From contig JANSYS010000004.1 in NCBI GenBank assembly GCA_024742275.1, positions 248,001-312,000 on the forward strand: 64,000 nucleotides of DNA. Direction: 5' to 3'. The notes below the pieces were generated by a model. The model made no database searches and was not told where the DNA came from. It saw only the letters and a program-made list of their open reading frames with translations. Origin of the DNA: Alphaproteobacteria bacterium (GTDB lineage: Bacteria; Pseudomonadota; Alphaproteobacteria; Thalassobaculales; Thalassobaculaceae). A program made the position numbers and the translations under genes. This document shows positions 38,491 to 41,715 of this stretch, piece after piece; positions within the stretch are counted from its first letter, which is position 1; the number at the start of each line of letters is the position of its first letter.

Positions 38491-38901
38491 ATGGAATCGT
38501 CGGTCGCGGCAGTCTCGCGTGCGTCATTCAATCAACCGGGCCAGTCGGCAGCCGGTGTGCCTTTGGGCGCCCGGGGCTCGACGGCTATCGGCAGTGGTCT
38601 CCGGTCCGGTGCCGTCCTTGTCGATGCTGTTGACCGCGTCGCGTCCGAACTGCAGTTGGAGCGTGAATCGGCAGCCGAGGCTGCGCGCGATGCCGCACTG
38701 GCAGAGCAGAGAGCGCAAGACGCCGAAAACCGTCTTGCGCGCGCTGAAGGCCGGGTTGAGGACGAGGATCGGGCGCCGGTCAATACCTCAAGGTTCGGGG
38801 TGAGTGACGACGACACGGAAAGGTCGATTAATGCGGCTCGTGTCGCCGCGTCTCAAGGCGAACGCACGCCGCGCGGCGCCTTCGTCAATCTATCTGTTTG
38901 A
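38491..38901 (+). CDS. Hypothetical protein with coiled-coil segment
   Basis: Protein of 136 residues. Residues about 45-95 form a charged heptad-like helix (ELQLERESAAEAARDAALAEQRAQDAENRLARAEG); the ends are Gly/Ser-rich and probably disordered. A ribosome site GGGAGG precedes ATG 38491. No signal, membrane segment or known domain is seen. It is about 90 bp downstream of the aminotransferase gene and no functional link is evident. It might be a structural or adaptor protein. Confidence 0.55.
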   Translation: MESSVAAVSRASFNQPGQSAAGVPLGARGSTAIGSGLRSGAVLVDAVDRVASELQLERESAAEAARDAALAEQRAQDAENRLARAEGRVEDEDRAPVNTSRFGVSDDDTERSINAARVAASQGERTPRGAFVNLSV

Positions 38902-39049: not shown

Positions 39050-39535
39050 TTACTCGGGCAGATCCAGGCTGGCTTTCTGCACCTTTTCCAGAAACGAGAG
39101 AACCTTCTGCCGTTTCGATTCGAGCTGTAGTTGGGTTGTCGGCAGCTCGGCGATCCACATCTTGACCCTGGCGACCACCTTCTCCACGCCTTCGTCCTTG
39201 AGGACGTAGTCGTCGGCTCCGCTGCGAAAGCTGGACAGGAGCGTCTCCGGTTTGCGGATGCTTGTAGCGATGATGATCGGGATCGTCAGACTGATCTTGC
39301 CGCGCACCATCGAGATGAAACGGTTGCCGCCTTCCTGATGGAACACGCCCGGCCGGGTGAAAACACCGAGGTCCACGACGCAGAGATCGATGCGGGAGCG
39401 TTCCATGATCTTGAGCGCATCCGCGGACTCGGTGAAGTTCGTCACGCTTCCGACGATGCCGTCGACCGCCGCGCGGAACAGCATCGTCTGAATCATGTCG
39501 TCCTCGAGCAGCAGAATTTGGCGTTCAATGGGCAT
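39050..39535 (-). CDS. Single-domain response regulator
   Basis: Receiver protein of 161 residues from ATG 39535. The acidic pair Asp12/Asp13, phospho-acceptor Asp55 (CVVDLGVF) and Lys113 (VLKDEG) are present, followed by a short C-terminal helix (LESKRQKVLSFLEKVQKA). There is no DNA-binding domain, so output is by protein contact. It starts 5 bp after the hybrid kinase gene's stop on the same strand, so it is almost certainly its partner in a phosphorelay. Confidence 0.88.
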   Translation of the reverse strand: MPIERQILLLEDDMIQTMLFRAAVDGIVGSVTNFTESADALKIMERSRIDLCVVDLGVFTRPGVFHQEGGNRFISMVRGKISLTIPIIIATSIRKPETLLSSFRSGADDYVLKDEGVEKVVARVKMWIAELPTTQLQLESKRQKVLSFLEKVQKASLDLPE

Positions 39536-39540
39536 GGGGT

Positions 39541-40791
39541 TCAGGAAGCGGGAGAGGGTGTGGACTGCAGTTCGTCGATCTGCGCCCGCGCTTGGGCCGC
39601 GACTTCGGAAAGCGTTGCCAAGTCGGTCTCGTTCAGGCTCGCGCCGGATCGCAGGATCTCCTGCAGACGCCGGCATAGCGCGCTGAGACGCAGCAAACCG
39701 ATGTTGCCGGCGATGGAGACCATCTTGTGCAGCGCTTGCCGCTTGTCCTCCGACTCCACATCGGATGCAACGACCTGCGCTCCGAGCGATTCGATTTCCG
39801 ATACTGCCTGTTGAAGGACCATCTTCATGGTATCGGCCGGTACCAATTTGGCGAGTGAGGCGTATCGCTCGACGCTGAAGGACGGCTCCGAGTTGGAGGC
39901 GACGGCCGAGCCCGCCGACGTTTCCGTCGATGGGGGGGAGCCGGCCGCGACTTCGACAAGATTGATGTGGGCAAGGGCGTCGAAGAGTGAGGCTTTGTCT
40001 ATCGGTTTGGTCAGGTAGGCGTTCATGCCCGCGTCAAGGCAGGCGGCCATATCGTCCCGCGACGCGTAGGCTGTGAGTGCGACGATCGGGACCGATCGCG
40101 CGGATTCGTCGGTGGCGGCGCTCCGAATCTCGAGGGTCGCCTTGAGTCCGTTCATTACCGGCATCTCGATATCCATCAGCACCGCATCGAACCCACCGGA
40201 CCGGACCGCCTCGACCGCCTCTGACCCGTTGGCCGCCGTGCTTGTATGGAAACCGACTTGATCGAGAAACGCGCAGGCGATCTCGGCATTCACCTCGACA
40301 TCGTCGACGACAAGGACGCGGAGTCCCTGGCGGACGGATACGTATGTGGAGTCGACATGCGGCCCTTGCTCGACTGCGGCCGCCCGGTCGTGCGTTTTGG
40401 TCGGGATCTCTAGGCTGACGGTCGTCCCGATACCGGGAACCGAGTCGATGGAAATCGATCCTCCCATGGCCTCCACGGCGGCACGGGCAATGGGCATCCC
40501 GAGGCTGGCGCCGCTCCAAGCTCCGGCGTCCTGGCGCTCGAACGGTTTGAAGACCATGTTCAGCCGCTGCTCATCGATCCCGACACCCGTATCGGAGACT
40601 TTGATCCGAAGAAGCGCATCCGGCCCTGTGGCCGTGTTTCGTTCGACGGTCTCCAGCGTTGTTGCGATGGCAACGTGTCCCCGCTCGGTAGATTGCACGG
40701 CATTGGACAACGTATTGATCAGGCATCGGCGAAGCCGGTCCGCGTCCAATTCCACGACGACATCGGGTACGCCGTCCCCCGCCACCCTCAA
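39541..40791 (-). CDS. Hybrid histidine kinase, downstream portion (HATPase-REC-Hpt)
   Basis: Open part of about 416 residues after an in-frame amber codon. It has an ATPase domain (N-box CLINTLSNAVQ, G1 box DTGVGID, GASLGMPIARAAVEAMGG). A receiver follows (VVDDVEVNAE, phospho-acceptor in LMDIEMPVMNG, TKPID). An Hpt-like domain ends it (ALHKMVSIAGNIG). The frame is continuous with the dimerisation domain at 40882-41715 and continues upstream from 40791 to the amber codon. The TTG at 40791 is only the first possible start, with no ribosome site, so independent translation is doubtful. With the upstream part it forms one conventional hybrid kinase of 724 codons. Confidence 0.75.
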   Translation of the reverse strand: MRVAGDGVPDVVVELDADRLRRCLINTLSNAVQSTERGHVAIATTLETVERNTATGPDALLRIKVSDTGVGIDEQRLNMVFKPFERQDAGAWSGASLGMPIARAAVEAMGGSISIDSVPGIGTTVSLEIPTKTHDRAAAVEQGPHVDSTYVSVRQGLRVLVVDDVEVNAEIACAFLDQVGFHTSTAANGSEAVEAVRSGGFDAVLMDIEMPVMNGLKATLEIRSAATDESARSVPIVALTAYASRDDMAACLDAGMNAYLTKPIDKASLFDALAHINLVEVAAGSPPSTETSAGSAVASNSEPSFSVERYASLAKLVPADTMKMVLQQAVSEIESLGAQVVASDVESEDKRQALHKMVSIAGNIGLLRLSALCRRLQEILRSGASLNETDLATLSEVAAQARAQIDELQSTPSPAS

Positions 40792-40881
40792 GTCGAGACC
40801 CTTGCGGTTGGCTTCGTCTCGAATGCTGGAGAGGGCGCTCTCGACGATAGCCTGAAGCGGTCGCCGATCGGCTGAAACCTG

Positions 40882-40884
40882 CTA
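40882..40884 (-). other. In-frame amber codon splitting a hybrid kinase
   Basis: TAG read on the minus strand between AAG and CAG. The codons on both sides are in the same frame and encode adjoining parts of one protein: FSRYQDRK before it and QVSADRRPLQAIVESAL after it, as expected between a HisKA and an HATPase domain. It is a nonsense mutation, a readthrough site, or a sequencing error. Confidence 0.85.
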
Positions 40885-41715
40885 CTTTCGATCTTGGTAC
40901 CTGGAGAAGTGGAGGATGTCGTCAATCATCCGGAGCAGACTTTTGGCCGAAACACGCAACCGGTCGATCCGTTGCTTCTGGCCGGCATCCTGGGTGTCGT
41001 CGCGCAGAAGTTGGGCACAGCCAAGGATCGCATTCAGCGGAGTCCTGACCTCATGGCTCATCAAGGCGATGAAACGATTGCGTACCTGCAAGGCTTCCCG
41101 CGCTTCTGCTTCGCTTCTGCGGAGATCGGCGATCAGGGTGCGCCGCCTGCTCTCGTGCAGCATCATGAGGCCGAGGATGGCGACCCCCGCTACGTTGGTG
41201 AGCACGAGGATCGGCGCGAACCGGGAGAAGAGCGTCCAGGCGATAGCCTTGTCGGGTATCAGCATGAGGGTCGGCAGGGCGATGACCGAGCTGACCGTTG
41301 CAAAGATGAGGAGCGCAGGGAGGACCATTGAGAAACGATGTCGCCGCATCACCGCCCAGGCGGCGACGCTGCACAGCGTGAGGAGGACCATCGAGCCGAC
41401 CCCAGCGGCCATGCCGATGCCGCCGATCCAGACGCGCAGCAAAACCGGAGGGACGACGGCAATCAGGGCGGCAACCGGTCCGCCGAGAATTCCTGAAATC
41501 AGAAGCGGAGCGGAACGCGCGTCGTAAATCACGCCGGGAGCGAACTGGATGGGATTCAGCATGACCAGCGCGGAGATCAGTCCGAGGCCAAGGCCGAGAA
41601 TGGCGGAGCGCGTCAGCTGAGCCATGGCATCGTTAATGCCCGGTGTCGCCGAATAGACGATGGCGGCGAGAGCGAGCAGCGCGATGTTGCTGATGAGTGG
41701 AAGAATCAAGTCCAT
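40882..41715 (-). CDS. Hybrid histidine kinase, upstream portion (5TM sensor and HisKA)
   Basis: First 277 residues of a membrane histidine kinase. Five to six N-terminal helices (residues about 5-185) have the pattern of the 5TMR-LYT sensor (NPIQFAPGVIYDARSAPLLISGILGGP, then a conserved RVWIGGIG). A dimerisation domain follows with the phospho-His221 in SHEVRTPLNAIL. It stops at an amber codon right after FSRYQDRK, before the ATPase domain. As written the protein cannot bind ATP, so either readthrough or the downstream piece must supply the catalytic part. It lies divergent from potF. Confidence 0.8.
   Translation of the reverse strand: MDLILPLISNIALLALAAIVYSATPGINDAMAQLTRSAILGLGLGLISALVMLNPIQFAPGVIYDARSAPLLISGILGGPVAALIAVVPPVLLRVWIGGIGMAAGVGSMVLLTLCSVAAWAVMRRHRFSMVLPALLIFATVSSVIALPTLMLIPDKAIAWTLFSRFAPILVLTNVAGVAILGLMMLHESRRRTLIADLRRSEAEAREALQVRNRFIALMSHEVRTPLNAILGCAQLLRDDTQDAGQKQRIDRLRVSAKSLLRMIDDILHFSRYQDRK

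Follow-up and report, generated by a model that had tools for sequence, protein, structure and literature searches.

The minus-strand frame 41715-39541 of the window (the whole stretch of 64,000 nucleotides analysed here, from a genome designated G000) encodes a hybrid histidine kinase interrupted by one amber codon. The interruption is very probably a recent nonsense, loss-of-function allele of an otherwise normal kinase gene, that is, a young pseudogene. The locus is most likely an ordinary young pseudogene and not a novel type of split or recoded kinase. The frame consists of 277 residues, TAG as codon 278, 446 residues and a terminal TGA. As the earlier note claimed, translation shows no stop inside this frame other than TAG at 40884-40882 (one assembly, one strain), and the codon right after TAG is CAG. 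The features of the locus are as follows.

40882..41715, minus strand: upstream fragment, 277 aa and the amber codon; 5TM-LYT membrane sensor and HisKA with His221
Residues 33-185, minus strand: 5TM-5TMR_LYT (Pfam PF07694, 3.1e-17)
Residues 212-274, minus strand: HisKA (Pfam PF00512, 1.4e-18)
40882..40884, minus strand: in-frame amber codon (codon 278) in the HisKA-HATPase linker; sense in 3/3 same-genus orthologues
39541..40881, minus strand: downstream part, 446 codons and the stop; linker, HATPase_c, REC and Hpt
40789..40791, minus strand: in-frame TTG with AAGG 8 nt upstream; candidate internal start, 416 aa
40396..40746, minus strand: HATPase_c domain (Pfam PF02518, 7.1e-21)
Within 39541..40881, minus strand: REC (Response_reg) downstream of TAG (Pfam PF00072, 1.1e-25)
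Within 39541..40881, minus strand: Hpt downstream of TAG (Pfam PF01627, 6.1e-6)
39050..39535, minus strand: receiver-only response regulator adjoining the kinase; ATG 5 nt after the kinase stop, no clear ribosome site
Window 39535-39543, L115 3815-3825, L116 3910-3918, L117 6362-6371: kinase stop/regulator start junctions

The earlier note placed a 5TM sensor and HisKA before the TAG, and a linker, HATPase, REC and Hpt after it in the same frame. Pfam agrees with both placements. All five domains score above the gathering cut-off, and HisKA, HATPase_c, REC and Hpt share one frame. The phospho-acceptor is assigned as His221 by the motif MSHEVRTP. The domain set is that of a hybrid HisKA histidine kinase, with the TAG breaking the open frame. 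A profile of the proteins of three relatives aligns across the TAG, scoring 709.7 bits with "1 TAG" in the match. In the relatives the reading frame continues unbroken through this position and, judging from these sequences, the continuity of the frame across the TAG is more than chance.

Orthologues were searched with the downstream 446 residues in 36 genomes of the family, including G000, at a cut-off of E 1e-40. At this level or better, 18 of the 36 genomes match. A clear orthologue is seen in three genomes of the same genus, with identities in the downstream half of 57% (G026), 52% (G025) and 52% (G027). Their open frames are 765 (G026), 719 (G025) and 768 aa (G027) and contain no stop. 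The kinase gene is thus found in three of the five other same-genus genomes, intact in all three. The remaining two, G023 and G024 (1.5 Mb each), show no match to the kinase or the regulator at the cut-offs applied; they resemble a reduced lineage, which may be symbiotic. The next-best match is in G010 (36%), where no regulator match is seen near the kinase, nor genome-wide at the cut-off. The order-level search took in the same 36 genomes. Kinase loci in named genomes show 25-43% identity in the best segment (best 80 loci kept). Matches in plasmid records (3560) are all under 60% identity, with 20 listed at 30-35%, and the close-relative search of viral contigs found no relative of the kinase.

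The TAG codon falls in the HisKA-HATPase linker. This linker is poorly conserved and the four sequences align poorly there, so the CAG-to-TAG change offered as an example in the earlier note is only one candidate origin of the stop. The comparison of orthologues at this codon, proposed in the earlier note, gave sense codons in the linker region of G025, G026 and G027 (3/3). The intact kinases of these genomes resemble the G000 copy in domain order, neighbours and whole-length identity (53-59%). They differ from it in having no internal stop and in keeping Phe342 and Gly404; the G000 copy has neither trait.

The neighbourhood is conserved as well. The regulator orthologue adjoins the kinase in 3/3 relatives, with 65-75% identity. 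Its start overlaps the kinase stop in G026 and lies 5-6 nt after it in the others; no clear ribosome site is seen in any of the four genomes, and GGAG lies 14 nt upstream of the start in G025. This arrangement, common to all four genomes, suggests translational coupling. Nearby in the window, Pfam also recognises a class-III aminotransferase, a solute-binding protein and a member of the glutamine synthetase family; three further genes look, from their translations, like two permeases and an ABC ATPase. These neighbours suggest that the locus belongs to polyamine or amine metabolism. A small gene, the aminotransferase, the solute-binding protein and the two permeases are likewise near the kinase in all three relatives. 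The glutamine synthetase gene is next in G026 and G025; in G027 a different gene lies beyond the aminotransferase, within the stretch examined. The small gene (136 aa, plus strand, window 38491-38901) has no Pfam match. It adjoins the regulator in all four genomes of the genus with the kinase-regulator pair, and the C-terminal end shared by these four copies is G-[AS]-F-[VI]-N-L-[AS]-V.

Sequence comparison of the four genus members bears on the age of the stop. Unique residues were counted after columns with a gap or stop were dropped, which left 277 upstream and 433 downstream columns; the glutamine synthetase gene was skipped. In the order G000, G026, G025 and G027, the counts are 25, 14, 15 and 16 for the upstream part, 40, 24, 19 and 24 for the downstream part, 16, 5, 5 and 14 for the regulator, 19, 7, 4 and 9 for the aminotransferase, 11, 8, 3 and 3 for the solute-binding protein, 6, 7, 2 and 2 and 5, 1, 4 and 6 for the two permeases, and 8, 6, 7 and 10 for the small gene. 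Binomial comparison of G000 with G026 gives p 0.06 downstream (all columns) and 0.11 upstream. G000 sits on a long branch in several genes, the permeases and the small gene excepted, and its downstream half does not stand out among them.

A codon model was fitted to the four sequences with the topology (G000,G026),(G025,G027) assumed. The synonymous branches are long and near saturation (about 1.5 for G000), so branch lengths are rough. For the downstream half, omega is 0.138 on the G000 branch and 0.184 on the other branches (p 0.33), with a 95% profile interval of about 0.08-0.22; omega of 1 is rejected (2dlnL 38). Upstream it is 0.106 versus 0.163 elsewhere (p 0.24). The HATPase part alone gives 0.274 versus 0.158 (p 0.29), and REC and Hpt give 0.089 versus 0.187 (p 0.052). 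The acceleration that relaxed selection after the stop would bring is not seen in the downstream half on the G000 branch, which fits a recent event. That omega in this lineage is no higher than elsewhere agrees with the view of the earlier note that the system was used recently. Under neutrality, a frame of this sequence would be expected to acquire about 25-37 stops for each substitution per site. As no second stop is present, at most about 0.08-0.12 neutral substitutions per site (95% limit) have accumulated since the TAG arose, if the half is unconstrained. With neither a second stop nor a rise in omega, either the TAG is recent or the downstream half is still translated. The lack of excess downstream changes fits a recent stop, and equally continued translation.

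The ATPase domain carries changes of another kind. The homologue set consisted of 94 distant homologues (88 loci) spanning HisKA to REC; loci of genus members, non-spanning homologues, duplicates and stretches of 700 residues or more were left out. Four residues of G000, L335T, K341Q, F342S and G404S, are each seen in 0/94 homologues. Position 404 is Gly in all 94 and in the three relatives, and Ser in G000 only. Position 342 is Phe in 85/94, Tyr in 9/94 and Phe in the three relatives, and Ser in G000 only. All four genus members depart at position 335, and at position 341 G027 departs as well. Private residues at positions conserved at 85% or more number 4 in G000 versus 2, 2 and 3 in G026, G025 and G027. 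Because private departures are few, the argument for decay rests on the kind and place of the residues. The four private or unusual residues of G000 all sit in the ATPase domain, after the TAG. Based on motifs, L335T, K341Q and F342S are placed in the N box, and G404S replaces the second glycine in the G2 box. PMC5964349 describes residues of the G1 and G2 boxes as essential for binding ATP. Two positions of the ATP-binding boxes (G404S and F342S) depart from consensus only in G000, and an effect of these changes on ATP binding is predicted. The changes fit a loss of kinase function moderately well.

Stops of this type were surveyed in the genome and the family. In G000, 33 HisKA and 39 HATPase matches are seen, none with a stop inside the match. 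An open frame with a HATPase match is shared by 31 of the 33 HisKA matches. The two exceptions are the amber-interrupted kinase and one match within 180 bases of the end of contig C45, where the remainder of the gene would run off the contig. For the family survey, a profile built from the three relatives and starting at HisKA was run over the 36 genomes, with up to 42 candidates scored per genome. It gave at least 179 matches in 22 of the 36 genomes, and the G000 kinase ranks fourth. Among the matches listed, nine contain internal stops; in the eight others the stop follows the ATPase or receiver part, at gene ends, and the G000 kinase is the only HisKA-HATPase interruption. A G020 match marked "1 TGA" in the downstream-half search has a main alignment free of stops. 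These surveys indicate that the interruption is a single event and a habit of neither the genome nor the family.

The search for an amber suppressor tRNA gene, also proposed in the earlier note, gave no CTA anticodon among the 79 tRNA matches over the cut-off in the G000 assembly. One further match, C8:16229 (26 bits), of the 80 in total, is below the cut-off and was left out. Anticodons were assigned by ARAGORN for 76 matches (hand-matched to the tRNA list) and read by eye from cmscan covariance-model alignments for three (His GTG, Leu TAG and Thr TGT). The assembly also encodes a bacterial RF1, whose score of 531 bits exceeds the curated cut-off. Since its completeness is 97.9%, a tRNA gene might still lie in the unassembled part. 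A suppressor-tRNA pattern matched at 10 sites (2 forward, 8 reverse), and its reversed control gave 9 and 11. Of the 10 hits, five sit in tRNA genes for Arg (TCT, twice), Glu (CTC and TTC) and Gln (CTG) according to ARAGORN. None of the other five coincides with a tRNA match, and three that were scanned contain no tRNA gene.

Two contigs of the assembly were considered as phage-like tRNA-rich contigs, and this was rejected. Contig C8 (L161, L162; 76.6 kb) encodes PsaA, PsaB and cytochrome f (Pfam) and many tRNAs, and is plastid DNA. Contig C15 (L133, L160; 27.8 kb) contains tRNA arrays and frames resembling atp1, nad3, nad7 and nad9 by eye, and looks mitochondrial. Given these organelle contigs, the sample probably contained an alga.

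The earlier note left a nonsense mutation, a readthrough switch and a two-protein kinase side by side. A nonsense allele is favoured because the 3/3 same-genus copies are uninterrupted and in the same neighbourhood, because the search for an amber suppressor tRNA was negative and RF1 is encoded, because two ATP-site positions depart from consensus only in the G000 lineage, and because this is the only HisKA-HATPase interruption among the matches listed, with 31/33 HisKA frames of the genome whole. What counts against it is that the unique changes downstream (40 versus 24 in G026) are in proportion to those upstream (25 versus 14) and in the regulator (16 versus 5). The lower omega of REC and Hpt on the G000 branch and the private residues (4 versus 2, 2 and 3) count against it too. 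It is unlikely that the TAG reflects an error of base calling or assembly, or comes from a minority variant of a mixed sample, with the gene itself intact. The bin does hold plastid and apparently mitochondrial contigs, as a mixed sample would, and the frame is otherwise clean, with normal constraint. In Wolbachia, sensor kinase genes are broken in one strain and whole in others, namely pleC (a pseudogene in wOo) and a split cckA, the latter likewise indistinguishable from an artefact, according to the available text of PMC4426382. The cckA of wAlbB has, in the same text, five in-frame stops from one single-base deletion, whereas the G000 kinase has a single stop in an otherwise open frame. 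Against an error, the ATP-site changes suggest a real loss of constraint, the TAG sits in a 319 kb contig, and none of six other genes compared across the four genomes is interrupted. Programmed or regulated amber readthrough, producing some full-length kinase, would account for a frame that is open and under constraint both before and after its single stop, but it is extremely unlikely: positive support was not obtained, neither an amber-decoding tRNA nor loss of RF1 was found, the stop is shared by 0/3 orthologues, and no other HisKA match of G000 is split likewise, bar the one cut by a contig end. Titles and opening parts of abstracts in the literature gave nothing on this kinase gene, nor on amber readthrough in kinases.

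The two-protein option has a weak internal start signal. The earlier note stated that no ATG or ribosome site follows the stop; there is indeed no ATG near, but the in-frame TTG at 40791-40789 has AAGG 8 nt upstream. This TTG is the first in-frame start codon after the TAG (residue 309, 90 nt downstream) and lies ahead of the HATPase, so a separate ATPase-REC-Hpt protein starting there is possible. It is very unlikely, however, that the locus is a natural split kinase in which 5TM-HisKA is phosphorylated in trans by such a protein. The relatives are fused and have CTC, CTG and CTG at the TTG site, with no ATG, GTG or TTG in any of them; they retain AAGG, inside Lys-Gly or Lys-Asp codons. A 4-base SD-like match at the scanned distance is seen at 2 of the 24 in-frame start codons downstream of the TAG, so the single match at the TTG is unremarkable. 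The ATP-site residues are changed as well. In favour of a split kinase are the purifying selection on the downstream half in the G000 lineage and precedents for such a division. Park et al. are said to have reconstituted EnvZ from two fragments in 1998. Kinase-like proteins of Caulobacter that act as phosphotransferases, PhyK and LovK, come from other kinase subfamilies than the G000 kinase and retain the ATPase domain, whereas the ATPase half of the G000 kinase is cut off. According to PMC5964349, their phospho-acceptor part stays active when the G1 or G2 box is mutated, with a single-domain regulator supplying the phosphate. CheA3/CheA4 of Rhodobacter sphaeroides (PMC3591291) and Hik36/Hik43 of Synechocystis (PMC7656254) carry the phospho-acceptor and the ATPase on separate proteins; as far as the available texts go, these are CheA-like pairs from separate genes, whereas G000 has one frame cut by a stop and only a candidate second start. 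By analogy, these systems make functional alternatives thinkable for the G000 kinase. It can be speculated that the truncated 5TM-HisKA sensor now works without an ATPase of its own as a phosphotransferase or phosphatase fed by the neighbouring single-domain regulator, much like PhyK and LovK, perhaps together with a separately started ATPase-REC-Hpt protein, but this is highly doubtful.

Based on the domain order, the intact protein of the genus would sense via its membrane helices and autophosphorylate on HisKA. The phosphate would pass via REC and Hpt, and then probably to the neighbouring receiver-only regulator. Under a nonsense allele, translation in G000 would end at codon 278 and leave a membrane sensor and HisKA that lacks the ATPase and could not phosphorylate itself. 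The ATPase-REC-Hpt half would give little or no product. Translation of the regulator is probably lowered too, because its start follows the kinase stop by 5 nt without a clear ribosome site. The signalling system of G000 would then be silent or nearly so, a kinase-null state.

If the phosphotransferase reading were true, the locus would show, caught in nature, how a single nonsense change turns a kinase into a phosphotransferase. A functional truncated sensor would show this route, testable in one locus. With a young pseudogene, the finding is mainly a correction: the striking pattern of a kinase split by an amber codon is best explained without recoding, via three intact relatives.
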